A stretch of DNA of 33,302 nucleotides from Candidatus Treponema equifaecale (lineage in GTDB: Bacteria; Spirochaetota; Spirochaetia; Treponematales; Treponemataceae), in the NCBI GenBank assembly GCA_018064905.1, contig JAGHUJ010000028.1, positions 1-33,302 on the forward strand, read 5' to 3'. The notes below the pieces were generated by a model. That model was given only the letters and a program-made list of their open reading frames with translations. It did no database searches and was not told the DNA's origin. How positions within the stretch are numbered: position 1 is the stretch's first letter; the number at the start of each line of letters is the position of its first letter. Below, piece after piece: positions 2,097 to 32,012 of this stretch. Position numbers and translations under genes: made by a program.

Positions 2097-2132
2097 GTTG
2101 TTTATTTCGTGATTCGAATTAAGGGAAAAATT

Positions 2133-3902
2133 ATGAAAAAAAATAAAATTACCGTGATAGCCATATCTTTGCTGGGATTTTTGCTTGCCGGTTGTGTGCA
2201 ATTTTTGGAATTTTTGGAAAGTTCTGGAGGGTTAAAGGCTTATCAAACCAAATACGCAACCATCACAAAAACCTGGGACTACAAGGAGTCACCAATATTT
2301 GAAATTGACGACGATGTGAAGACTGTAAACATTTCAAATCTTCCAAGAGGGAAACACCTGTACTACGCAAAGGTGAATCCAACCCAGTTCAGCTTTAATT
2401 TTGAAGATACCAGATTTGTCACAACCAATAGCGGAAGGGCCGTTACAACTTCAGATGATTTTGCACCGATTGAGGATCTGAACATTCGGAATGAAGAAGC
2501 AGACCTAGAAAATCATTTGAAGCATTATCAGATTCCAGAAATCAATAGAAGTTCCTGTAGAGCTGTATTGACTCCAAACGAAAGTCCAACCGACACCTAT
2601 CCTAACCAAAAAATAGATTATAAAGAAGGTTCAAGAGAATACTTCTGGATCAATGACGAAAAAAATGACAAGGCTCAAAATAAAAGGCCTGCAACTCTGC
2701 AGAAAATCGGAACTTACTGTTATGTATGGGTTGTTGATGGCTACTACAGCTCAAATTACTATAAAACAGAAAATCAGGTTTCTAAAACTGATGTAGAAGC
2801 AATTCAGCAGGCTTTTGATACAATGTATCCATATATAACCCATGTTTTTGGAAATGAGTTCAACTATCTTGTGAACGATACTTATTATGGAACAATATTC
2901 AACAGCATGAATTTTGCCTCAAAAACCGGTAACAAAATCAACATAATCGTCTTTGACATAAACGGTGACTATACAAGTACCAACACCGGATCTGTTATGG
3001 GTTATTGTGCAACCAAGGATTTTTACTCAGTCAAAAATGTGGAGTCATCAAATGAAGGAAAATGTTTCTATCTTGATTCTGCATACGTAAAAACCGGTGA
3101 GTTCAAGTCTACATTGCCCCACGAATTTCAGCACATGCTGATGTTCTCTCAGAAAATCTTCAATCCCTTAAAAAAAGGATTCAAAAGACAGGTACCAAGC
3201 ACATCTTATAGCGAAATGCTTGCAATGCTGGCAGAAGATATGCTGCAGGAAAAACTTGAAATACCTGATGCAAAAAGTCCAAAGCAGCGTTTGGCTCAAT
3301 TTGTTCTAAATTATCCCGCTTCTGGAATAAATGAATACAATCAGGGATATCCTTCTATTTCATACGCTAATTTCTATGCCTTTGGTTCATGGCTGGCCAG
3401 ACAATATGGTGGAGCAGAACTAATTAAAGAAATGACGCAGAATGAGTGCAATGATTTGCATTCGATAACAGCTGCCGTCAACAAATTGAACCCAACAAAT
3501 TTTACATTTGATGAACTTTTTCAACAATTTCTTTTGGCACTGTTGAGAAATTCAAAATATACTCATAATCAGGATGCAAATACAAATATTTCTTATGGAA
3601 TTGAAAACTACACATTCCCAATGAAAGCAATCGATTTGTTTGAAACCAGGACATATCAAACTGCTTTGAACGATCCTGCAAACTATACAACTTTGTCGCA
3701 AAATGTCTATGCAGATTATGGCTGGAAAGGACCTGTTATATTCAAGAATCGGACAGGTACGAAAATTCTGCGACCAAATTATGGAATTACCCTGCACGGA
3801 ATTGCAAAAACAGACTCCCTTCGAGATTTTAATGGAAAGGCGACAATAGATTTTTCTGCAGAAGGTGCGGTAGGCCTTAAAATTTATCTTATAGTTCAAT
3901 AG
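2133..3902 (+). CDS. M30-like zinc metallopeptidase lipoprotein (second paralogue)
   Basis: This 589-residue lipoprotein is paralogous to the preceding one. The ATG at 2133 follows AAGGGA and opens a textbook signal peptide with lipobox LAGC (Cys21). The longer reading from 2109 would put charged residues in front of the signal and is not favoured. HEFQH is at residues 330-334, followed by SEMLAMLAEDMLQ, matching the acidic segment of the first copy. The two proteins differ mainly in their N-terminal 150 residues and agree through GTYCYVWVVDGYY and the metal site. It lies in the same operon as its paralogue and the small exported protein that follows, with SD AAGGAGG just after its stop. It is predicted to be anchored in the envelope and to act on an unknown protein substrate. 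Confidence 0.78.
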   Translation: MKKNKITVIAISLLGFLLAGCVQFLEFLESSGGLKAYQTKYATITKTWDYKESPIFEIDDDVKTVNISNLPRGKHLYYAKVNPTQFSFNFEDTRFVTTNSGRAVTTSDDFAPIEDLNIRNEEADLENHLKHYQIPEINRSSCRAVLTPNESPTDTYPNQKIDYKEGSREYFWINDEKNDKAQNKRPATLQKIGTYCYVWVVDGYYSSNYYKTENQVSKTDVEAIQQAFDTMYPYITHVFGNEFNYLVNDTYYGTIFNSMNFASKTGNKINIIVFDINGDYTSTNTGSVMGYCATKDFYSVKNVESSNEGKCFYLDSAYVKTGEFKSTLPHEFQHMLMFSQKIFNPLKKGFKRQVPSTSYSEMLAMLAEDMLQEKLEIPDAKSPKQRLAQFVLNYPASGINEYNQGYPSISYANFYAFGSWLARQYGGAELIKEMTQNECNDLHSITAAVNKLNPTNFTFDELFQQFLLALLRNSKYTHNQDANTNISYGIENYTFPMKAIDLFETRTYQTALNDPANYTTLSQNVYADYGWKGPVIFKNRTGTKILRPNYGITLHGIAKTDSLRDFNGKATIDFSAEGAVGLKIYLIVQ

Positions 3903-3917
3903 AAGGAGGATTTTATT

Positions 3918-4241
3918 ATGAAAAGATTTGCTTTGGCTTCATTTTTATTTGCTTTGATTTGTGGATTCGCATTCGGCTATGGAAAAGCTCCTGCAACTGT
4001 TGTGGGTCACATAAATTTCTACGGAAACGCTCCTGTTGAATTTCCTGGAATCGTTACCGTTGATGGTCAAACTTATGGCTTAAAAATTGCCGAAGGTTCT
4101 GCCTTTACTTTAAAAGAAATAAGCTCCCACCAGGGGGAGCTTCTGGAACTGACAGGTGAAATAGAAAATCCCAAAGGCCCTGCTTACCAGCGCCTGAAGG
4201 ACGGTTTTTTCATCGTGTCAGAATGGAAGGTTCTGAAGTAG
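3918..4241 (+). CDS. Small exported protein of unknown function
   Basis: This 107-residue protein begins with an apparent Sec signal peptide (MKRFALASFLFALICGFAFG), leaving a mature domain of about 87 residues. That domain is rich in Gly, Val and Thr and looks like an all-beta fold. An OB-like barrel is possible, but no family was recognised. A strong SD (AAGGAGG, 3903-3909) sits 8 bases before the ATG and directly abuts the stop of the upstream metallopeptidase, so it is translated from the same transcript. Its position as third gene after two secreted proteases suggests an envelope role, perhaps as inhibitor, chaperone or ligand-binding partner. That is inference from context only. Confidence 0.65.
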   Translation: MKRFALASFLFALICGFAFGYGKAPATVVGHINFYGNAPVEFPGIVTVDGQTYGLKIAEGSAFTLKEISSHQGELLELTGEIENPKGPAYQRLKDGFFIVSEWKVLK

Positions 4242-5223: not shown

Positions 5224-5250
5224 GTGGGTGACTATCTTCTTTTTTATCCG

Positions 5251-5279
5251 TTGTAAATTCCCATTTTTTCCATTATTCT
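5251..5279 (+). promoter_or_regulatory. Promoter of dnaX-ybaB-recR (leaderless type)
   Basis: TTGTAA (5251-5256) and TATTCT (5274-5279) are separated by exactly 17 bases. Only seven bases lie between the -10 box and the dnaX ATG at 5287, and no SD is present, so the predicted transcript starts at the initiation codon. Confidence 0.55.
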
Positions 5280-5286
5280 ATTCAAT

Positions 5287-7311
5287 ATGTCATACGAAGT
5301 AACTGCAACCCGCCGACGTCCTCAGGCTTTTGAAGCTTTGGCTGGACAAGAATTTGTTGCTGAAACACTTAAAAATTCAATTCAGTCAGAAAAAATTGCA
5401 CATGCCTATCTTTTCTCTGGCCCTCGTGGTTGTGGTAAGACTTCCACTGCCCGCATTCTTGCTAAGGCTCTCAACTGTGCAGAAGGTCCTACTGCCACAC
5501 CTTGTGGAAAGTGTCAGCAGTGTCTTGAAATTACAAAAGGCCAGAGCACTGATGTAATTGAAATCGACGGTGCTTCAAATACTTCTGTAAATGATATTCG
5601 TCAGATCAAGGATGAGGTTTTGTTTCCGCCACAGAGCTCACGTTACAAAATCTACATCATTGATGAAGTCCACATGCTCTCAACCTCGGCCTTTAATGCT
5701 TTGCTTAAAACTATTGAAGAGCCGCCTCCATACGTTATTTTCATTTTTGCTACTACTGAACTTCACAAGGTTCCGGCTACCATTAAATCACGCTGCCAGC
5801 AGTTCAACTTCCGTCTTGTTCCTATTGAAACTGTAAAGGAACAGCTTGCCCAGGCTGCTGCAGAAATCGGTATTCAGGCTGAAGATGAGGCTCTTTATTG
5901 GGTTGCCAGAGAATCAACTGGTTCCATGCGTGATGCCTACACTCTTTTTGATCAGGTTGCAGCATTCAGTGGCGATAAAATCACTTATGAAAAAATCCGA
6001 GACAAGCTTGGTCTTGTTGGTGTTGAGCGGCTCAATGCAATTTTTGAAGATTGTGCTCAGAACAAGTCTCAGGATGCACTTTTAAAAATTGATGAATTTT
6101 TGCAGAACGGTATTTCAATCGAACAGTTCATTTCAAACTGTACTGATTACCTTCGTTCGCTGCTTTTGATTCGTGCCGGCATTACTAAAGAAGCTCTTCT
6201 TGGAAATGCCCGTGAACGTTTTTCTGAAATTGTTCTCAAAGCATGGAATCCTATTCAGCTGGAACGAGCTCTTTCAATTCTGTTGCAGCTTTTCCGTGAC
6301 ATCCGCTATTCACTTTCTCCACGCTACGAACTGGAACTGGCCTTTTCAAGATTAAGCTGGCTCAGTGAATATGTTTCTCCTTCAGAAGTAAAAAAGGCTC
6401 TGGATGAAGCCAAGGCTCTTTTACTGGGAAACGCATCGGCTCAGGTTGTAAAAACTGCACCACAACCAGCACAAGTTCAGACCCCTGCGGCAAATCCAGT
6501 GGCACCAGCTCAAGTTGTTCAAAGTGCGGCTGTCCAGAATGTTCAGCAGATTCAGAATGTCCAGCCGGTTCAGAACGGATCTGTTCAGAATGCGCCTAGA
6601 AATATTTTTGCACAGGCTGCATCTTCAACTTCAGCACAACCTGCACAATCTGCACCTGTTCAGAACGCGCCAAAAGCAATTCCAACCTTCAGCGCATTGG
6701 CAGGAATGCAGTCAGCGGCTCCAACTGATTTTTCTAATCAACCGCCGGTTTCAGATCCGGAAATGGACGAAAATTTTGCTCCACCTGATCCAACACCTCA
6801 GGACCTGCCACCACAATCTTTTAGCAATGGCGGAGCTGTACCGCCTGAACAAACAGAAGCAGACGGAACAGACGAACCTGGGGATTTTAGAAGCAGGGTT
6901 TTAAAACAGCTTTCAATTCAGGAGCCTATGCTGGCTGGTTCTCTTTATCAGACTGGTCCCTGGCTACAGAACGGAAATTTGGTCACAACTGTGGTTCAGT
7001 CCACCTATCTGAAGATGCAGTTGGATTCAAACCAGAAAAAGATTTCAGAATTCCTTACAAAATTCTGTGGCCAGCAGACAAATTTTCAGGTAAATCTTCT
7101 GCAGCAGCAAAGGGTGAACCTTGATGAAAACGCACCGGAAGAAGTTAAGCTTCTCTGTTCAATTTTTAAGGGACAGATTGTAGGTCATTCCAAGAAAACT
7201 GATCAGGAAATTGCGGCTGACTCTCAGAAAAAACAGGAAATTGAACAAAATAACGATTCAGAATCACAGGCAGAAGAAATCCAGACTGATGATGCTGAGG
7301 AAAATGAATAA
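5287..7311 (+). CDS. dnaX: DNA polymerase III subunits gamma and tau
   Basis: DnaX is the motor of the clamp loader that puts the beta sliding clamp on DNA; full-length tau also tethers polymerase cores and helicase. In this 674-residue protein Walker A (GPRGCGKT) is at residues 45-52, zinc-binding cysteines at 64, 73, 76 and 79, Walker B DEVH at 126-129 and the SRC arginine-finger motif at 168-170. A Gln/Ala/Pro-rich linker spans roughly 385-530, followed by a C-terminal tau domain and an acidic tail. A candidate -1 frameshift site (6390-6396) would yield a product of about 373 residues ending at domain III. It is the first gene of the classic dnaX-ybaB-recR operon, with ybaB 15 bases downstream. 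Confidence 0.97.
   Translation: MSYEVTATRRRPQAFEALAGQEFVAETLKNSIQSEKIAHAYLFSGPRGCGKTSTARILAKALNCAEGPTATPCGKCQQCLEITKGQSTDVIEIDGASNTSVNDIRQIKDEVLFPPQSSRYKIYIIDEVHMLSTSAFNALLKTIEEPPPYVIFIFATTELHKVPATIKSRCQQFNFRLVPIETVKEQLAQAAAEIGIQAEDEALYWVARESTGSMRDAYTLFDQVAAFSGDKITYEKIRDKLGLVGVERLNAIFEDCAQNKSQDALLKIDEFLQNGISIEQFISNCTDYLRSLLLIRAGITKEALLGNARERFSEIVLKAWNPIQLERALSILLQLFRDIRYSLSPRYELELAFSRLSWLSEYVSPSEVKKALDEAKALLLGNASAQVVKTAPQPAQVQTPAANPVAPAQVVQSAAVQNVQQIQNVQPVQNGSVQNAPRNIFAQAASSTSAQPAQSAPVQNAPKAIPTFSALAGMQSAAPTDFSNQPPVSDPEMDENFAPPDPTPQDLPPQSFSNGGAVPPEQTEADGTDEPGDFRSRVLKQLSIQEPMLAGSLYQTGPWLQNGNLVTTVVQSTYLKMQLDSNQKKISEFLTKFCGQQTNFQVNLLQQQRVNLDENAPEEVKLLCSIFKGQIVGHSKKTDQEIAADSQKKQEIEQNNDSESQAEEIQTDDAEENE
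6390..6407 (+). promoter_or_regulatory. Candidate programmed -1 frameshift site in dnaX
   Basis: The in-frame codons GTA AAA AAG form the heptamer A-AAA-AAG (6390-6396), the same slippery sequence used in Escherichia coli dnaX. After a -1 slip the reading is GGC TCT GGA TGA, stopping at 6405-6407. The shortened protein would have about 373 residues. A weak GGCT/AGCC stem overlaps the start of the downstream region. No strong upstream SD-like stimulator was seen, which lowers confidence. Confidence 0.45.
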
Positions 7312-11874: not shown

Positions 11875-12567
11875 ATGAAATACAGCAAAATTACAATAGG
11901 AAAATTCATCGACCGTCCAAACCGCTTCATTGCAAATGTTGAAATTGAGGGAAAAATCGAGACGGTTCACGTTAAAAACACAGGCCGCTGCAAGGAACTT
12001 CTTTTGCCAGGTTCAAAAGTCATTCTGGAAGATTTCAGGGCTTCTTCGGGCAAGCGAAAAACTTTGTTTGCCCTGATTGCAGTTTATAAAAATACCACTT
12101 CTCCAAAACTAAATTCACCCTTACTCATAAATATGGATTCTCAGGCTCCAAACAAAGTTATGCATGAGTGGCTTTTGAAACAGGATTACGATTTCATAAA
12201 GCCGGAATTTACCTTTGGAAATTCCAGAATAGATTTTTACCTTGAAAAACAGAATGAAAAATGGCTCGTTGAAATAAAGGGCTGTACCCTTGAAATTGAC
12301 GGCACAGGTTATTTTCCAGACGCACCAACTGAACGGGGCGTAAAGCATTTACGGGAACTGGCAGCCGCAGCTAAAAACGGCTACAAATGTGCCGTAGGTT
12401 TTGTAATTCAAATGGAAGGAATTGATAAAGTTCTTCCAAACACAGAAACTCACCCGGAATTTGGAACGGCACTTAAAGAAGCTCAGGAAAATGGCGTTGA
12501 AGTATGGTTCATGCTGTGCAAGGTAATGGAGGATGGACTTGAAATTGTGGGAAAAAATTCAGAATGA
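11875..12567 (+). CDS. sfsA: SfsA family protein, copy 1
   Basis: SfsA was named for stimulating sugar fermentation in E. coli. The family contains the arrangement SRID...EIKG, here Asp120, Glu133 and Lys135, which resembles the metal site of PD-(D/E)XK nucleases. Its cellular role is not firmly established. The protein is 230 residues, normal for the family. A second copy of the same length at 31320-32012 shares most of its sequence, including KFIDRPNRFIA and YFPDAPTERGVKHL. The ATG comes immediately after the T-tract of the purD terminator, leaving no room for an SD or an ordinary promoter. Expression may depend on terminator read-through. The start is supported by alignment with the second copy. 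Confidence 0.88.
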   Translation: MKYSKITIGKFIDRPNRFIANVEIEGKIETVHVKNTGRCKELLLPGSKVILEDFRASSGKRKTLFALIAVYKNTTSPKLNSPLLINMDSQAPNKVMHEWLLKQDYDFIKPEFTFGNSRIDFYLEKQNEKWLVEIKGCTLEIDGTGYFPDAPTERGVKHLRELAAAAKNGYKCAVGFVIQMEGIDKVLPNTETHPEFGTALKEAQENGVEVWFMLCKVMEDGLEIVGKNSE

Positions 12568-12634: not shown

Positions 12635-12937
12635 ATGTATATAAAAGACGGTATCTGCTATGCAGGCGAATTAGTTCCTTCTATCGAAGTTTCTTCGATC
12701 AAGTTATTAGATTCAGCTATGATGCTTGTTACCTTCTCGACTGGTGAAGTCCGTCTGTTTGATGTGCTTTCTCTTTTAAATAAAGGTTCCGCTTATGTTC
12801 CTTTATCAGAAGAAAAAAATCGTCAGACCGCAAAAGTAACATACGGATTTGTTTCCTGGATGGATGGAGAAATAGACATTGCTCCGGAAACTATGTATTT
12901 GGAAAGTTATAAGTATTCTCAGGAATTTACAGCATAA
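12635..12937 (+). CDS. DUF2442 domain protein
   Basis: This 100-residue protein fits the DUF2442 family: a central strand-rich LLVTFSTGEVRLFDV-like segment and a C-terminal WMDGEIDIAPETMY motif. The biochemical function of the family is not known to me. It is followed 10 bases later by a DUF4160 gene, a pairing commonly found in bacteria and sometimes suggested to act as a toxin-antitoxin-like module. An SD (AAGGA) precedes the ATG, and a possible -10 TATACT sits at 12603-12608. The pair lies in a short accessory stretch just before the RiPP locus. Confidence 0.75.
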   Translation: MYIKDGICYAGELVPSIEVSSIKLLDSAMMLVTFSTGEVRLFDVLSLLNKGSAYVPLSEEKNRQTAKVTYGFVSWMDGEIDIAPETMYLESYKYSQEFTA

Positions 12938-12947
12938 AGGAAAGATA

Positions 12948-13211
12948 ATGCCAGAATTAAGCAGATTTGAAGGAATGGTAATTTATATGCTTTTTCGTGA
13001 TAATAAAGAGCATAATAAACCTCATGTACATGTATATTATGGTGAATATAAAGCTGCAATTGCAATTGATGGTGAATTGCTGGCAGGGAGATTACCACCA
13101 AAACAATTAAAGATTGTTGTCGGATGGTTAGCTTTACATGAAGAAGAAGCATATGCGGCCTGGAATCTCGCTGTTTCTGGCGAACATTTCGAAAAAATAA
13201 AACCTATTTAA
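12948..13211 (+). CDS. DUF4160 domain protein
   Basis: This 87-residue protein matches DUF4160: an N-terminal MPELSRFEGMVIYM strand region, the conserved HNKPHVHVYYGEY segment and a C-terminal helix with LHEEEAYAAWN. The start at 12948 is chosen because AAGGAAAG precedes it and the family starts with this MPE/ISRF motif. The His-rich HxxPHxH motif could bind a metal, but no activity is established as far as I know. It is co-transcribed with the DUF2442 gene. A large hairpin with T-tract at 13252-13307 ends the unit. Confidence 0.78.
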   Translation: MPELSRFEGMVIYMLFRDNKEHNKPHVHVYYGEYKAAIAIDGELLAGRLPPKQLKIVVGWLALHEEEAYAAWNLAVSGEHFEKIKPI

Positions 13212-13356: not shown

Positions 13357-13656
13357 TCATAAACTTTTTAAAAAAATCAATAAATTGTTTTGTTGCTCAG
13401 AAGTCAGTCTATTAATTTCATTCAACAACTCATTTTGTTTTTCTGTAAGATCAACCATTGATGAAGATGAAAAAAACTGTGCCAGAGTAATATTAAAAGC
13501 ATCACATATTTTCTCAAGCGAACAAATAGATGGCTGCATATTTTTTCTATACCAAGAAGAAATTGTAGATTGAGGTAGTTCAGATTTTTCAGCTAACTGG
13601 TATTCAGACCATCCGCGTTCTAAACGCAAATTTCTGATTTTCTCAAGAATATCCAT
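13357..13656 (-). CDS. XRE-family transcriptional regulator of the RiPP locus
   Basis: This 99-residue protein has an N-terminal Cro/CI-type helix-turn-helix (QLAEKSELPQSTISSWY, about residues 20-37), an F-N-I-T-L segment typical of XRE repressors and a helical C-terminal tail likely to aid dimerisation. The start at 13656 (MDILEKIRNLR) is preferred over 13719 because the family normally begins just before the first helix and because a TTATAT -10 box (13663-13668) ends six bases upstream, implying a leaderless mRNA. It is transcribed away from the RiPP operon. Palindromes WACGA-N4-TCGTW at 13667-13680 and 13733-13746 are candidate operators. Repression of both directions is inference. Confidence 0.82.
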   Translation of the reverse strand: MDILEKIRNLRLERGWSEYQLAEKSELPQSTISSWYRKNMQPSICSLEKICDAFNITLAQFFSSSSMVDLTEKQNELLNEINRLTSEQQNNLLIFLKSL

Positions 13657-13666
13657 AGTCCTATAT

Positions 13667-13680
13667 AACGATATTTCGTT
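13667..13680. promoter_or_regulatory. Candidate XRE operator 1
   Basis: AACGA-TATT-TCGTT is a perfect 5+4+5 palindrome overlapping the -10 box of the XRE gene. It shares the pattern WACGA-N4-TCGTW with the site at 13733-13746. Autoregulation is inferred from position. Confidence 0.5.
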
Positions 13681-13700
13681 TATTTTACTAAATGTTTTCC

Positions 13701-13729
13701 TTGACAAGTGATAATTCATGTCGTAAAAT
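13701..13729 (+). promoter_or_regulatory. Sigma70-type promoter of the RiPP operon
   Basis: A consensus TTGACA (13701-13706) and TAAAAT (13724-13729) are separated by exactly 17 bases. The expected start is near 13736, which falls inside the second candidate operator. This is the best-matching promoter in the window. Confidence 0.7.
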
Positions 13730-13732
13730 TAT

Positions 13733-13746
13733 TACGATAAATCGTA
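13733..13746. promoter_or_regulatory. Candidate XRE operator 2
   Basis: TACGA-TAAA-TCGTA repeats the WACGA-N4-TCGTW pattern of operator 1 and covers the expected transcription start of the RiPP operon. Another inverted pair, TCGTAA/TTACGA (13721-13737), overlaps the -10 box and this site. Confidence 0.5.
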
Positions 13747-13777
13747 GCAAGTAACGTAGGTATTTTATTATTTTATT

Positions 13778-14251
13778 ATGAGACCAAATACAATAACTGA
13801 ATTTGATAATGTTTGTAGTGCCATCAAAAAATCCCTTTATGGCCAGAATCCGATTAAATTTATAGCAGGAAGATTTGAAAATCCTATCGTATATAAAGAC
13901 AACTTTATGTGGATTTCCACATCTGACAATGAAATTGGATTTTCCCAGTGCCATTATGAAATTCGTCTATGTGAAGATTTAAGCAATCCTTCAAATTTGG
14001 TTGAATATATCTCCGTCGAAATTCATATCGAATCATCCAAATCAAAAATTTCAAATGGACTGAGTAAAAATATACAGACAGTTTTAACCACCGTTCAGAG
14101 CAGTATTGGATCGAATTATATTTGGAACTCAACAGGTAAAAGATTTCCTGTAAATATAAATCAAGTTACACCTATAATTAAGGAATTGACTAATCTTGAT
14201 TCGTTAATTGGGCAAACTATAAAAAACAACATCAAACAAACATTAGGCTAA
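13778..14251 (+). CDS. Unknown protein, first gene of the RiPP operon
   Basis: This 157-residue soluble protein has no signal peptide or transmembrane helix. It shows alternating beta-strand-like segments (NPIKFIAGRFEN, NFMWISTSDNEIGF, EYISVEIHIESS) and a helical C-terminus. No family was recognised. It is the promoter-proximal gene, and its stop lies 28 bases before the precursor peptide start, so it is co-transcribed with the peptide and its enzymes. Possible roles are leader binding, self-protection or an unrelated passenger; none is supported by motif. The SD is weak (TAGG far upstream). Base composition is AT-rich like the rest of the RiPP block. Confidence 0.6.
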   Translation: MRPNTITEFDNVCSAIKKSLYGQNPIKFIAGRFENPIVYKDNFMWISTSDNEIGFSQCHYEIRLCEDLSNPSNLVEYISVEIHIESSKSKISNGLSKNIQTVLTTVQSSIGSNYIWNSTGKRFPVNINQVTPIIKELTNLDSLIGQTIKNNIKQTLG

Positions 14252-14279
14252 ATAACCAATGTAACAATGGGGTGTTTTT

Positions 14280-14612
14280 ATGAAAAAAACAACAAAAGAT
14301 ATTTTAAATGTTGCACTACCAGTTGCTATGCTCCTTTCATCTGGTTGGACTGCAAATGCAACTGTATCAAAAACTACAGAAGAGCAAAATGTTTCTGTTG
14401 AAAAAACAAGGGAAGACCTTTCCATTGTTGAAAACTGTGCAGAAGATTCTCAAGTTTTACAAGCACTTTATGCCTGCAGAAACAGTTGCATGGGATCCTG
14501 TGGAGGCTCTTGTTATGGAAGTTGTGAACGCAGCTGTATGGGAAGTTGCACTGCGGGTTGCTCTAGTAGCTGTTCTGGTAGCTGCAAATTTTCAAGTGCA
14601 CGGACTTGGTAA
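14280..14612 (+). CDS. CXXX-repeat RiPP precursor peptide
   Basis: This 110-residue peptide has a C-terminal core with ten cysteines at positions 66, 70, 74, 78, 82, 86, 90, 94, 98 and 102, an exact period of four. The nine spacers are RNS, MGS, GGS, YGS, ERS, MGS, TAG, SSS and SGS; eight end in Ser. One further Cys (53) lies in the leader. The N-terminus is basic then hydrophobic and ends in A-x-A (TANA, residues 24-27), like a Sec signal, an unusual RiPP leader. It is followed by a radical SAM/SPASM enzyme and a SPASM-only protein. From memory, this matches the computationally defined 'CXXX repeat peptide' class. Thioether crosslinks from Cys to spacer residues are the likely modification, by analogy with sacti- and ranthipeptides. 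The SD GGGGTG is at 14269-14274. Confidence 0.85.
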   Translation: MKKTTKDILNVALPVAMLLSSGWTANATVSKTTEEQNVSVEKTREDLSIVENCAEDSQVLQALYACRNSCMGSCGGSCYGSCERSCMGSCTAGCSSSCSGSCKFSSARTW

Positions 14613-14624
14613 TAATTGCTGTAA

Positions 14625-15791
14625 ATGAATAAACATGGCGAATTAGAAATTGATGCTTTTAAGTCACTTAACTCAAATTTTCCCTTGACCTTTACTTTTG
14701 TACTTACAGAAGCATGTCAGTTGATCTGTAAGTACTGTTATTTTGCTGGTAAAAACAGGGAAAATCATATGACTTTTGAAACTGCTCAAAAAGGCATTGA
14801 TTATCTATTGGAAAACCCTCATATTTTTTCACATAAAAGAATTGTTTTCGATTTCATAGGTGGAGAACCATTTCTTGAAGTTGATTTAATGAACAAAATT
14901 TCCTCATATATAAAAAAAAGAATGTATGAACTTAATCATCCTTGGTTCAATGACTATATGTTTAATGTCAGCACCAATGGATTATTATATTCAGATCCAA
15001 AGGTAAGGGAATTTATTTCAAATAATCGGGCTCATCTTGAAATAGGTATAACTATTGATGGAACAAGAGAAAAACATAATCTGAACAGAATATTTCCAAA
15101 TGGGAAAGGTTCATATGATGAAGTCATAAAACAAATTCCATTGTGGTTAAAAGATTTTCCAAATGCTTCAACCAAAGTTACTGTTGCATCAGATGACATG
15201 CCATATTTAGCTGATTCGATTATTCATTTGTTTAATTTAGGAATAAAAACGGTAAATAGTAATGTTGTATTTGAAAATGTGTGGAAAGAAAATGATGATA
15301 AGATTTTTGGAGAACAATTAATCAAACTGGCAGATAAGATAATAGATGATAAATATTACATAGATTATCAATGTTCATTTTTTTCTGAATCCATAGGGAA
15401 GCCTGAAAACAACAATGACAATTGGTGTGGAAGTGGACGAAACATGATAGCTTTGGATGGTCATGGAAATTTTTACCCATGTGTTCGTTTTACACCTTTT
15501 AGTATGTCTCAGAAAAAAACAACTGTTTCAGTCGGTAATATAAATTCAGGACTTGATTTCAATAAACTGAGACCCTTTTTAACTTTAGATAAATTTTCCC
15601 AATCAACCGAAGAATGCATAAATTGTGAAATAGCATCTGGATGTGCATGGTGTGTTGGTTTCAATTATGATTCCGCAGCAACTGATACGATTTACCAGAG
15701 AGCGACTTATATCTGTAAAATGCATAAAGCCAGAGTACGAGCTAACAATTACTTTCAACAAAGACTTATGGAGGCGAAAAAAAATGATTGA
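14625..15791 (+). CDS. Radical SAM/SPASM peptide maturase for CXXX-repeat peptide
   Basis: This 388-residue enzyme has the radical SAM CxxxCxxC motif at Cys31, Cys35 and Cys38, the SAM-binding GGEP motif in FIGGEP, and a complete SPASM domain with cysteines 268, 286, 331, 334, 340, 343 and 364. SPASM domains hold auxiliary [4Fe-4S] clusters and are typical of enzymes that form thioether or carbon-carbon links in peptides. It begins 12 bases after the precursor stop with no clear SD, suggesting coupled translation. It overlaps the next gene by 8 bases. From memory it fits the radical SAM maturase family assigned to CXXX-repeat targets. The precise bond formed is not known. Confidence 0.88.
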   Translation: MNKHGELEIDAFKSLNSNFPLTFTFVLTEACQLICKYCYFAGKNRENHMTFETAQKGIDYLLENPHIFSHKRIVFDFIGGEPFLEVDLMNKISSYIKKRMYELNHPWFNDYMFNVSTNGLLYSDPKVREFISNNRAHLEIGITIDGTREKHNLNRIFPNGKGSYDEVIKQIPLWLKDFPNASTKVTVASDDMPYLADSIIHLFNLGIKTVNSNVVFENVWKENDDKIFGEQLIKLADKIIDDKYYIDYQCSFFSESIGKPENNNDNWCGSGRNMIALDGHGNFYPCVRFTPFSMSQKKTTVSVGNINSGLDFNKLRPFLTLDKFSQSTEECINCEIASGCAWCVGFNYDSAATDTIYQRATYICKMHKARVRANNYFQQRLMEAKKND

Positions 15792-16746
15792 ATCGATAAA
15801 CGTACTCCTGTCAGATGACTCTGTTCAGTTTTGCCATTATACGACAGAGAAAAAGAATGCTGCAAAATGGCTAAGTATAAAAGATTTAAAAGAATGCTTT
15901 GAATATTCAAAAGCTAATAAGATTAATATCAATGTTGTATTTCCAGAATCACCTATACCACAAGATATAAAAAGTGTTCTTGAAAATGAAGATTACTGCA
16001 GCATACAGCATTATTCAGAGCATAATATTGCAGACGTGAATGTTCTTTATGCAAATGATATTGAACATTCAACTTTTAACAATTCTGAGGAATTTGTTTT
16101 TATAATTTTAATTGAAAAGAAAGATGTTGCAAAATACCCAGTAATTCTTAAACAGATGCAGAAAAAGTTTAAAAAATTATCATTTATCATAACAGATATC
16201 GAATTCTGGACTGAAAAAGATTTGATAAATTATGAAAATGTTCTCAACACGTGTTTCGACTTATTGGTAAGTATTTATAAAGATACAAAAGAAAAATTAC
16301 CTGAAATAAACTTTGTTACAGACAGATGGTTTTTAGTTCAAGAAAATAGTTGCAATGCTGGAATTCGTCATTACACATTGGCACCAGACGGTAATATCTA
16401 TTTATGTCCAGCATTTTATTTTGCGAATAAACAAGATATTGGAAATATAGGTAATGTAAAAATCTTAAATGAACATTTACTAAAATATGATTATGCACCA
16501 ATTTGCAAAGAATGTGATGCATATCATTGCAACAGATGTGTTTTTCAAAACAAGATTTCAACAAATGAATTAAATATTCCTTCCTATCAACAATGTGTAA
16601 TTTCTCATTTAGAAAGAGAATTATCCAGAAAACTTTTGTGCAAGCTCAAATTATTAAATCCCCTATTTAATCAAATCATCGACTTTAAGGAAAATAATTA
16701 TACAGACCCACTGGTAAAAAAAATTCAGAAACAACACTCTTTTTAA
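15784..16746 (+). CDS. SPASM-domain partner protein lacking the radical SAM motif (CXXX peptide maturase-like)
   Basis: This 320-residue protein has seven SPASM-type cysteines at 190, 208, 241, 244, 249, 252 and 271. It has no CxxxCxxC at the N-terminus, so it should not cleave SAM itself. The N-terminal 180 residues look like a degenerate alpha/beta barrel. It may bind auxiliary clusters, present the precursor or pair with the true radical SAM enzyme encoded just upstream, with which it overlaps by eight bases. The start at 15784 is supported by GGAGG at 15770-15774. From memory it corresponds to the family called CXXX repeat peptide maturase, though the missing motif makes enzymatic independence doubtful. 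Confidence 0.75.
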   Translation: MIESINVLLSDDSVQFCHYTTEKKNAAKWLSIKDLKECFEYSKANKININVVFPESPIPQDIKSVLENEDYCSIQHYSEHNIADVNVLYANDIEHSTFNNSEEFVFIILIEKKDVAKYPVILKQMQKKFKKLSFIITDIEFWTEKDLINYENVLNTCFDLLVSIYKDTKEKLPEINFVTDRWFLVQENSCNAGIRHYTLAPDGNIYLCPAFYFANKQDIGNIGNVKILNEHLLKYDYAPICKECDAYHCNRCVFQNKISTNELNIPSYQQCVISHLERELSRKLLCKLKLLNPLFNQIIDFKENNYTDPLVKKIQKQHSF

Positions 16747-16757
16747 GGATATATTAT

Positions 16758-17024
16758 ATGAAAATTATTGGAAAAGTTTTACAAGAAGAACGAGATGAGA
16801 TCAAAAATCTATATATGCGAAAACTTTCATTAATTGACTTGGTGAAGTCTTTAAAGGATGATGATGCTATTTATGAAAAAGTAATCTCAGACTTATCTAA
16901 GACAAATGAAAAATTTGAAAACTGGTGGAATGAAATTGGAGCTAAATATTGCTTGGAAGGCAGAGGTTCTACAAGTAATTGGACTATAAATTTCGATACC
17001 TGCGAAATTTCTTTATGTGATTAA
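16758..17024 (+). CDS. Small accessory protein of the CXXX peptide system
   Basis: This 88-residue protein is mostly helical in residues 1-60, with a conserved-looking FENWWNEIGAKY segment and a C-terminal strand WTINFDTCEISLCD. It lies 11 bases after the SPASM partner with SD AAGGATA, as last gene of the operon. From memory it resembles the small 'CXXX repeat peptide modification system protein' family that accompanies these maturases. It has no catalytic motif; binding the leader peptide, as RiPP recognition elements do, is a reasonable guess but is not shown by sequence. A terminator follows at 17097-17143. Confidence 0.7.
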   Translation: MKIIGKVLQEERDEIKNLYMRKLSLIDLVKSLKDDDAIYEKVISDLSKTNEKFENWWNEIGAKYCLEGRGSTSNWTINFDTCEISLCD

Positions 17025-18908: not shown

Positions 18909-19196
18909 ATGTGCAGAGCATCTATTTACGAAGCCCGGAACAATCTTTCGGCATATATTAAAACCGCAGAAAATGGAGAAGTTGTTGAACTCACCCGTCA
19001 TGATAAGCCTGTTGCTGTTATTTTGAGCTGGACAGATTATGAAAATGAGGTGTTGAAATCAAATTCAAAAAAAACAAACTGGCTGTCCGACTGGAGAGAA
19101 AAAAACAAGGATTTGCTGGAAGAATTTGGTGATGATGACTGGCTTCACCGTGACAGAAGGCACCCTCCAAAAAACTATGGAAAATGTTTTGATTAA
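18909..19196 (+). CDS. Phd/YefM-type antitoxin
   Basis: This 95-residue protein has the Phd/YefM N-terminal DNA-binding fold: SIYEARNNLSAYIKTAENGEVVELTRHDKPVAVILSW-type sequence in about 40 residues. An acidic C-terminal part (KDLLEEFGDDDW) probably wraps the toxin. It should neutralise the PIN-domain RNase encoded 15 bases downstream and repress their shared promoter. The start has no SD and lies six bases after the -10 box, so the antitoxin message is probably leaderless while the toxin has a good SD. That difference could set their relative synthesis, which is inference. Confidence 0.87.
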   Translation: MCRASIYEARNNLSAYIKTAENGEVVELTRHDKPVAVILSWTDYENEVLKSNSKKTNWLSDWREKNKDLLEEFGDDDWLHRDRRHPPKNYGKCFD

Positions 19197-19211
19197 TAGG
19201 AGATGTAAAAA

Positions 19212-19637
19212 ATGAATCCAGTTTATCTTCTTGATACAAATGTGGTTTCTGAATTTACGAAGCCATATCCAAATGAAAATGTAATCCAGTCTTATGAAGC
19301 TTATCGAACAATAAGTGCAATTTCTTCAGTTACTTGGCAAGAATTGGTTCATGGTGTTGAAAGGCTTCCTGATGGAAAAAGAAAGTCCAGACTGCAGAAT
19401 TTTATTGATGGACTGCAGAACAATGTTCCCATCATAGAATACGACGCTTTTGCTGCAAGAATCTGCGGGGAAGTTCAGGCAAAGTGCGAAAATCAGGGTG
19501 TTTCTCTGGGTTCCTACGATTCTCAGATTGCGGCTACGGCTCTTGCAAACGGAATGATTCTCGTTACCCATAACACCAGAGATTTTGAGCCATTCTGCCA
19601 GAATTCCTCCCTCAGCATGGTGGATTGGGCCAGCTAA
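19212..19637 (+). CDS. vapC: VapC-family PIN-domain toxin
   Basis: This 141-residue PIN-domain ribonuclease has the acidic metal-binding residues in place: Asp8 in LLDTNVVSE, Glu44 in WQELVHG, Asp103 in YDSQIAATAL and Asp124 in NTRDF. VapC toxins typically cut tRNA or rRNA and halt translation when not bound by antitoxin. The active site appears intact, so the module is probably functional. SD AGGAGATG precedes the ATG. It pairs with a Phd/YefM antitoxin, a common combination. The RNA target cannot be read from sequence. Confidence 0.9.
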   Translation: MNPVYLLDTNVVSEFTKPYPNENVIQSYEAYRTISAISSVTWQELVHGVERLPDGKRKSRLQNFIDGLQNNVPIIEYDAFAARICGEVQAKCENQGVSLGSYDSQIAATALANGMILVTHNTRDFEPFCQNSSLSMVDWAS

Positions 19638-30870: not shown

Positions 30871-31317
30871 ATGGAAGAAAACTTTTACAAGACCAAAAAT
30901 CTGATGGAAATGTCGGATGAAGAATGGGAAGCCCTTTGTGACGGATGCGGAAAATGCTGCTTCAGAAAATTCATTGAAGGACACGGAAAAAAGACCAGAC
31001 TCTACTACACCTGCATCGCCTGTGATCTGCTGGATTTAAACACTGGACTCTGTTCAGACTATGAAAACCGCTTCAAACTGAACAAGGAATGCACTCACCT
31101 TACCAAAAAAAATGTCAAAGAATTCAGCTGGCTTCCTGACACCTGTGCTTACCGGCTTTTGTATGAAAAAAAGGAGCTTCCAGAATGGCATCCGCTGATT
31201 TCAAAGGACAAGGATTCTGTAAAAAAGGCCAGAATTCAGATTAAAAACGGCATTCACGAAAAAGATGTGGAAGATTGGGAAGATTATATTCTGAACGAAG
31301 AAAATATCGGTGGAAAA
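30871..31317 (+). CDS. YcgN/YkgJ-like cysteine-cluster protein (UPF0260 type)
   Basis: This protein of 149 residues starts MEENFYKTKNLMEMSDEEWE and carries the family's CDGCGKCC cluster, followed by YTCIACDLLDLNTGLCSDYENR and TCAYRLL. The cysteines probably bind a zinc or iron-sulfur centre; the function of the family is not established. GGAG at 30855-30858 is 12 bases before the chosen ATG, and homologues start at this position. The coding part ends just before TGA at 31318-31320, whose final A begins the ATG of sfsA copy 2, so the two genes are translationally coupled. Confidence 0.85.
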
Positions 31318-31319
31318 TG

Positions 31320-32012
31320 ATGCGCTACGAGAACACAATTACCGGAAAATTCATAGACAGACCAAATAGATTCATCGCTCATGTGGAAATTGAAAGAAAA
31401 ATAGAAACGGTTCATGTTAAAAATACGGGTCGCTGCAAAGAGCTTCTTCTCCCAGGTTCCACTGTAATTCTGGAGGATTTCAGAAATACCAGAGCCGGTG
31501 AGAATAGAAAAACTAAATTCGATCTGATTGCAGTCTACAAAAAGCGAAATACAGACCAGCTTTTAATAAACATGGATTCTCAGGCACCAAACAAAGCGGC
31601 TTTTGAATGGCTAAAGAAGCAGGACTACACCTTCATAAAACCAGAATATACCTTTGGTCAAAGCAGAATTGATTTTTACATGGAACGAAATGATTCTCAG
31701 GGCAACATAGAAAAATGGCTGCTTGAAATTAAGGGCTGCACTTTGGAAATTGATGATGTGGGCTATTTTCCGGATGCACCAACAGAACGAGGCGTAAAAC
31801 ATTTAAGGGAACTGGCCGCTGCTGCTAAAAACGGCTACAAATGTGCCATTGGTTTTGTGATTCAGATGGAAAATATTTCCAAAGTCCTGCCGAATGTTGA
31901 AACCCATGCTGAATTCGGCAAGGCTCTGGAAGAAGCAATGCAGGCTGGAGTTGAAGTCTGGTACCTGCAATGCAAAGTTAAAGAAGATTCACTGGAAGTT
32001 GTTAAAGCTTAG
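31320..32012 (+). CDS. sfsA: SfsA family protein, copy 2
   Basis: This is a second full-length SfsA (230 residues), by eye about 70% identical to the copy at 11875-12567. The SRID...EIKG residues are Asp118, Glu136 and Lys138. The two differ most around residues 56-80 and 120-132, where there are small insertions and deletions. Its ATG overlaps the stop of the YcgN-like gene. Its TAG stop overlaps the TAA of the convergent dehydrogenase, with no terminator between. Both copies appear intact, so a difference in role or regulation is possible. As for copy 1, biochemical function is not settled. Confidence 0.9.
   Translation: MRYENTITGKFIDRPNRFIAHVEIERKIETVHVKNTGRCKELLLPGSTVILEDFRNTRAGENRKTKFDLIAVYKKRNTDQLLINMDSQAPNKAAFEWLKKQDYTFIKPEYTFGQSRIDFYMERNDSQGNIEKWLLEIKGCTLEIDDVGYFPDAPTERGVKHLRELAAAAKNGYKCAIGFVIQMENISKVLPNVETHAEFGKALEEAMQAGVEVWYLQCKVKEDSLEVVKA

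Follow-up and report, generated by a model that had tools for sequence, protein, structure and literature searches.

Among the described systems closest to the one considered here, PapB joins Cys to an Asp or Glu four residues on (PMC9413430), and the bufferins and lipoproteins matured by MNIO enzymes, both ribosomally synthesized and post-translationally modified peptides (RiPPs), have a signal peptide as leader, an arrangement that has been called rare (PMC12452194, PMC12636315). The CXXX-repeat families of NCBIfam have so far been named from sequence only; our literature search found no paper on TIGR04114-04119 or on bacterial CXXX repeats, and two CXXX papers concern cnidarian proteins. 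We analysed a CXXX-repeat locus in a 33,302-nucleotide stretch of Candidatus Treponema equifaecale (contig JAGHUJ010000028.1; the whole stretch is called the window). A sequence-only reading had proposed that its families are named while the chemistry of the product is undefined, and the literature search agrees. The locus is a Sec-routed variant of this named but chemically undefined radical SAM system, and we hold with moderate confidence that the product made and matured by its operon is a Cys-repeat protein that carries multiple modifications and is located outside the cytoplasm.

Precursor and enzymes of the Treponema operon

The operon is formed by the following parts:

14280..14612, plus strand: CXXX-repeat precursor, 110 residues, 11 Cys (TIGR04114, 18.5 bits against a cut-off of 20)
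14280..14360, plus strand: predicted Sec-type signal peptide as leader, MKKTTKDILNVALPVAMLLSSGWTANA, cut after ANA (by hydropathy, charge and AxA site)
14475..14585, plus strand: core with ten Cys at period four (C-x-x-S repeats)
14625..15791, plus strand: radical SAM/SPASM maturase of the CXXX-repeat family, 388 residues (TIGR04115)
15784..16746, plus strand: SPASM-only partner, 320 residues (TIGR04119)
16758..17024, plus strand: small accessory protein, 88 residues (TIGR04116)

The single operon and the CXXX-repeat naming, both claimed in the sequence-only reading, were confirmed. The four genes are on the same strand and tightly spaced, with a 12-base gap between precursor and maturase, an 8-base overlap between maturase and SPASM-only gene, and an 11-base gap before the small gene. 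By NCBIfam search the three proteins after the precursor were above their cut-offs: 544.5 bits against 350 for the maturase, 205.7 against 150 for the SPASM partner, and 74.3 against 50 for the small protein. The precursor was below both precursor models, by a narrow miss for TIGR04114 and a clear one for TIGR04117 (11.4 bits against 50). Considering that the precursor of a clear member of the system (L200, described below) also misses them, with 19.0 and 43.0 bits, these scores reflect the models more than the locus.

The ten Cys at exact four-residue spacing, also noted in that reading, correspond to residues 66-102, and an eleventh Cys, at residue 53, does not fit this register. Eight of the ten register Cys have Ser before them; Ala is found before the first and Gly before the eighth. 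When Cys was shuffled in the 83-residue mature part, a period-four run of five or more appeared in 0.09% of the trials, and the chance of a run of ten is of the order of 1e-10.

What the earlier reading missed is that the first 27 residues of the precursor resemble a secretion signal. The predicted signal has a KK n-region (charge +2), the h-region ILNVALPVAMLL with a mean hydropathy of 2.38, and an ANA site, and the predicted cleavage point lies between LPVAMLLSSGWTANA and the next residue, T. By hydropathy, charge and AxA site, the n-, h- and c-regions of a Sec signal are all present and there is no twin-arginine motif in the precursor, from which we infer a signal peptide of Sec type.

In the maturase, the CX3CX2C motif and seven SPASM Cys were invariant across 23 aligned sequences. 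Its nearest characterised model is that of PapB (NF047865; 194.9 bits, under the cut-off of 340), and the SCIFF model TIGR03974 gave 108.5 bits, under the cut-off of 425. CteB was the closest solved structure (5wgg; E 1.6e-45 using the family profile). The SPASM-only protein lacks CX3CX2C and retains seven SPASM Cys, which together with Cys17, located near the lost cluster site, were invariant in an alignment of 20 sequences. Its model (predicted local distance difference test, pLDDT, of 90) adopted the radical SAM/SPASM fold, with 5wgg as the best match (Z 20.7, 277 residues, root-mean-square deviation 3.2 Å). The partner is a radical SAM enzyme copy that has degenerated but kept all the auxiliary cluster ligands. 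The profile comparison with the maturase gave 95% probability across the SPASM half, which is in line with a duplication followed by loss of the SAM chemistry. The partner is fused to the maturase, in proteins of about 700-760 residues, in Planctomycetota, Clostridium, Aminicenantes and one further genome (G435), and since fusion occurs in several lineages it suggests that the two form a fixed complex. The small protein was modelled (pLDDT 88) as a helical hairpin with a terminal beta-hairpin; no confident fold match was found for it, the best Foldseek E being 0.3 and the match to VIA (Z 7.5) being at the level of unrelated helical hairpins.

Export routes, relatives and surroundings

Twelve loci were recovered by scanning 84,980 species genomes, and further loci came from family searches. 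These relatives are scattered among Planctomycetota, Bacteroidota, Fibrobacterota, Alphaproteobacteria, Bacillota, Aminicenantes and Spirochaetota. The trio of radical SAM, SPASM and small genes is conserved across related loci, and the order precursor, radical SAM, SPASM, small is kept in Planctomycetota, Bacteroidota, Fibrobacterota and Spirochaetota; it differs in one Alphaproteobacterium. The precursors range from 47 to 330 residues with 5 to 71 Cys, and in the 330-residue precursor of L080 an unbroken series of 69 Cys keeps to period four. Thr, Ser, Gly, Asn and Ala make up most of the residues that separate the Cys, and no acidic acceptor is fixed there; therefore the PapB rule (Cys-X3-Asp/Glu) does not carry over. 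A 330-residue protein with Tat signal and lipobox was observed at L088 (G1160:C300, 10420-11409), with 71 Cys of which 69 are consecutive at period four.

Signals for twin-arginine translocation (Tat), of the form xRRx(F/L/I), were present in 19 of 24 precursors, and the L200 precursor is a twentieth (20 of 25). Examples are SRRAFMKK and DRREFIKK, followed by a hydrophobic stretch, which at five loci (L039, L073, L076, L080 and L083) ends, by reading, in a lipobox-like sequence. TatC was encoded by all eleven genomes examined that have Tat-signal precursors. In two spirochaetes tatC is located inside the CXXX operon (L084 in G1116, 3515-4222; L085 in G1160, 14629-15336), and it is the only tatC found in either. 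Similarly, a faecal contig filed as phage (L200, MT837480.1) has precursor, radical SAM, SPASM, small, tatA and tatC genes in that order, with tatA and tatC at 5226-6267. Where the precursor is not of Tat type, an ATP-binding cassette (ABC) exporter usually adjoins the enzymes, as at L040, L074 and L075; ABC exporters are also present at L042 and L072, where no precursor was found, and at a plasmid locus (L199).

The association between RR motif and TatC is modest and comprises few loci, with TatC in two of four non-RR loci; hence the case for Tat is based on the motifs and on the tat genes inside operons. These genes and the export signals of the precursors point to substrates that would undergo maturation in the cytoplasm before export in modified form. 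Our literature search found no relevant paper on Tat export of a RiPP. TatC (PF00902) is absent from the genome of the window (G000, 91% complete), from five other genomes sampled in the same genus and from a second Treponema (G458). Leu/Ile-Pro with small and hydrophobic residues after it is seen repeatedly in leaders of all three export routes (KILPALAVLGLA, TLPGLAFVNLGA and ALPVAMLLSSG), and by inspection this element may be what the maturase recognizes. We considered and discarded the idea that the maturase tree divides by export route across the family, its forks being weak; for the same reason, the routes cannot be ordered in time.

Three related loci were also noted. In plasmid pAPRE01 of Anaerococcus prevotii (L199, NC_013164.1, 44-9203), typed as conjugative, a fused CXXX maturase with an ABC transporter adjoins a class III lanthipeptide cluster. 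In Aminicenantes, a CXXX peptide with a double-glycine-like leader (KVVGG; L089, G457:C694, 826-1050, minus strand) is near a lower-scoring maturase relative (122 bits). In G435 (L072), transposase-like genes interrupt the locus, the ABC exporter is split in two and no precursor was recognised.

The G+C content is 0.31 for the block 13357-17024 and 0.39 for the remainder of the window, and of 98 genomes searched only that of the window has the maturase family above the cut-off. Taking these two observations together, the locus was probably gained by horizontal transfer. The earlier reading had proposed a comparison with other Treponema: a second Treponema (L043, in G458) retains the SPASM and small genes, its maturase being cut at a contig end, and none of the 97 related genomes had a maturase above the cut-off. 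A pattern search for the precursor of G458 gave low-complexity hits only.

The four tightly packed genes run from 14280 to 17024; the start first given for the locus, 13357, takes in two genes that had gone unmentioned, which are listed here with the putative regulatory sites:

13357..13719, minus strand: Cro/C1-type helix-turn-helix (HTH) regulator, divergent from the operon (PF13443 E 1.4e-10, PF01381 E 4.4e-10)
13701..13729, plus strand: candidate sigma-70 promoter TTGACA-17-TAAAAT for the operon (11 of 12 consensus matches)
13721..13746, no strand: two adjoining operator-like dyads, TCGTAA/TTACGA and TACGAT/ATCGTA, over the -10 box, of presumed function
13778..14251, plus strand: open reading frame (ORF) of 157 residues and unknown kind, ending 28 bases 5' of the precursor

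The HTH gene, which matched an RstR-like model below its cut-off, is a probable local regulator of the operon. The promoter match and both dyads sit between it and the 157-residue ORF; the candidate promoter is the best of 21 sites, a number at chance level, and its role is therefore putative. The ORF may be cotranscribed with the CXXX operon. It had no match in NCBIfam, Pfam, plasmids, viral contigs or PDB and was not found in related CXXX loci. A prophage origin of the locus was rejected, the flanking genes being chromosomal (purD, sfsA, altronate dehydratase). Also in the window, a DUF2442/DUF4160 gene pair (12635-13211) and a Phd/PIN toxin-antitoxin pair (18909-19637) flank the locus, two similar SfsA-like proteins are encoded (11875-12567 and 31275-32012), and tandem paralogous putative lipoproteins with a HEFQHM metallopeptidase-like motif and no Pfam match lie at 357-2096 and 2109-3902.

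Maturase relatives in phages

Scanning IMG/VR with the family alignment gave 80 loci. The phage maturases group in a clade with 13 members, separate from the cellular enzymes (support 99/92), and eight of ten tested passed the TIGR04115 cut-off, one of them at 650 bits. Many adjoin Cys-repeat proteins of up to 76 Cys, which often share a non-signal domain; three of those that were tested, together with proteins of L119 and L141, matched phrog_6085, of unknown function. In the four loci tested, the neighbours included baseplate, tail-collar fibre, virion structural or endolysin genes. The small protein beside the phage maturases is homologous to TIGR04116 (hhalign 97%, E 5.9e-11), and L119 and L122 encode TIGR04116-like proteins. 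Since maturase, small protein and CXXX substrate are all found in the phage branch, these three are the core machine, with the SPASM partner as a trait of the cellular branch.

Six IMG/VR loci (L125, L127, L128, L136, L151 and L155) have TIGR04115-family maturases beside CXXX-repeat proteins of at most 72 Cys in tail/lysis modules, and most of them have the small protein homologous to TIGR04116. Their CXXX proteins are candidates for radical SAM-modified phage structural proteins. Among the IMG/VR entries, L125, L128 and L130 apparently derive from isolate genomes. Should the CXXX phage proteins turn out to be virion components, a virus structural protein would be modified by a radical SAM enzyme, a case of which our literature search found no report. 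Many large phages, including Salmonella and Erwinia jumbo phages such as SPN3US (JN641803.1, 140144-141319), also encode distant SPASM-type relatives of the maturase (25% identity), whose only annotation is radical SAM protein.

Proposed maturation, alternatives and known systems

According to the proposed mechanism, the leader of the newly made precursor would be held by the maturase complex while the radical SAM/SPASM enzyme modifies the register Cys repeat after repeat in the cytoplasm. In this task the degenerate SPASM paralogue would either relay electrons or clamp the substrate, which the small helical protein would present. The modification would most likely be a thioether between each Cys sulphur and a carbon of a nearby small residue, as in PapB and CteB; cross-linking of this kind is proposed for the window maturase by analogy with its nearest characterised relatives. 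The modified product would then be exported and its signal removed, in most relatives by Tat or a dedicated ABC exporter, and in the Tat-less Treponema via Sec with cleavage by signal peptidase I. Use of the general export path and general signal peptidase would explain why the Treponema locus has neither protease nor exporter of its own. The mature product would be a secreted repeat segment of about 83 residues, cross-linked or otherwise modified, with a structural or binding role. How the Cys are linked, that modification precedes export, what the two accessory proteins do and what the product is for are inferences.

Several points weigh against this proposal. The core has no Asp or Glu in register, unlike the acceptor rule of PapB. 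Export through Sec of a pre-modified, possibly bulky core would need premature export to be prevented. The signal was called from hydropathy, charge and AxA site, and the Sec-type precursor was found only once. Finally, a signal peptide is missing from the phage branch, and export therefore does not extend to the whole family.

A small Cys-rich precursor accompanied by a SPASM enzyme is usually read as the source of a secreted RiPP with antimicrobial or signalling activity, similar to ranthipeptides or sactipeptides. The short core of the window precursor, the relationship of the maturase to PapB, CcpM, SCIFF and sactipeptide enzymes, the paralogous precursor arrays at L035 and L037, and the ABC exporters of the C. 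gasigenes and plasmid loci agree with this reading. Against it, protease, immunity and exporter genes are all missing at the window locus, relatives reach 330 residues and 71 Cys, some with lipobox-like sequences, and the nearest outgroup family sits in phage tail modules. We consider this explanation unlikely. The interpretation given in the earlier reading is supported in part; picturing a small RiPP natural product is likely misleading, as the relatives are mostly Tat- or ABC-exported, with precursors of 47-330 residues and a phage-tail outgroup, and the product is probably not just a small peptide antibiotic.

Rather less probable is that the Cys stay free or are otherwise changed, for example with epimerised or hydroxylated neighbours, and that the product, once exported, buffers metals or redox state with a bufferin-like logic. 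Exported, Cys-dense precursors with signal peptides are the hallmark of bufferins (PMC12452194), and the number of Cys varies freely, from 5 to 71. On the other hand, no MNIO (DUF692/PF05114) enzyme was found among the six locus proteins by Pfam search, the closest SPASM maturases form Cys thioethers, and there is no obvious metal-transport neighbour beside the locus in the window. That the locus is recently acquired and decaying or silent in Treponema, its leader being a drifted Tat leader left without a route, would fit the low G+C, the lack of TatC and the 97 related genomes without the maturase, but it is very improbable given that the four frames are intact with all catalytic Cys kept, that the leader has a clean AxA site and a hydrophobic core, and that the second Treponema keeps its SPASM and small genes.

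Returning to the extracytoplasmic Cys-repeat protein, a broader interpretation can be offered tentatively, as a possibility on the lower side of even. The CXXX system might be a general machine for hardening extracellular repeat proteins, in which long rods with Cys at every fourth residue are stapled by a radical SAM enzyme and a small adaptor. Cells would export the rods via Tat (with tat genes sometimes in the operon, and sometimes as lipoproteins), ABC or Sec; phages encode them in tail modules and may build them into virions; the Treponema locus would be the Sec-routed cellular form. Three results make the named families testable: the export signals with Tat genes inside operons, the degenerate SPASM partner, and the same enzymes with a small-protein homologue in phage tail modules. 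CXXX enzymes may place tens of modifications on one chain, and it is the wider pattern of in-operon Tat genes, very long and lipobox-like Cys rods and phage tail modules that deserves attention.

By comparison with known systems, the window locus shares with the NCBIfam CXXX-repeat system the gene order and all three enzyme and accessory models above the curated cut-offs; it differs in that its precursor has a Sec-type instead of a Tat-type leader and a single short run of ten Cys. The PapB/freyrasin ranthipeptides (NF047865) likewise have many Cys at regular spacing, whereas in the window core the position four residues on is the next Cys in nine cases and no Asp or Glu of a Cys-X3-Asp/Glu motif stands in register; the window system has in addition a SPASM partner, a small protein and an exported precursor. 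The SCIFF/thermocellin enzyme CteB (5wgg, 5why) is the closest solved structure to both the maturase and the SPASM-only partner, although CteB acts on one short peptide and the window partner lacks the SAM cluster motif. With the bufferins and RiPP-lipoproteins of MNIO enzymes the system shares a signal peptide as leader, lipoprotein signals in some cases, Cys-rich cores and long precursors, while it uses a radical SAM enzyme instead of an MNIO enzyme and its relatives take the Tat and ABC routes.

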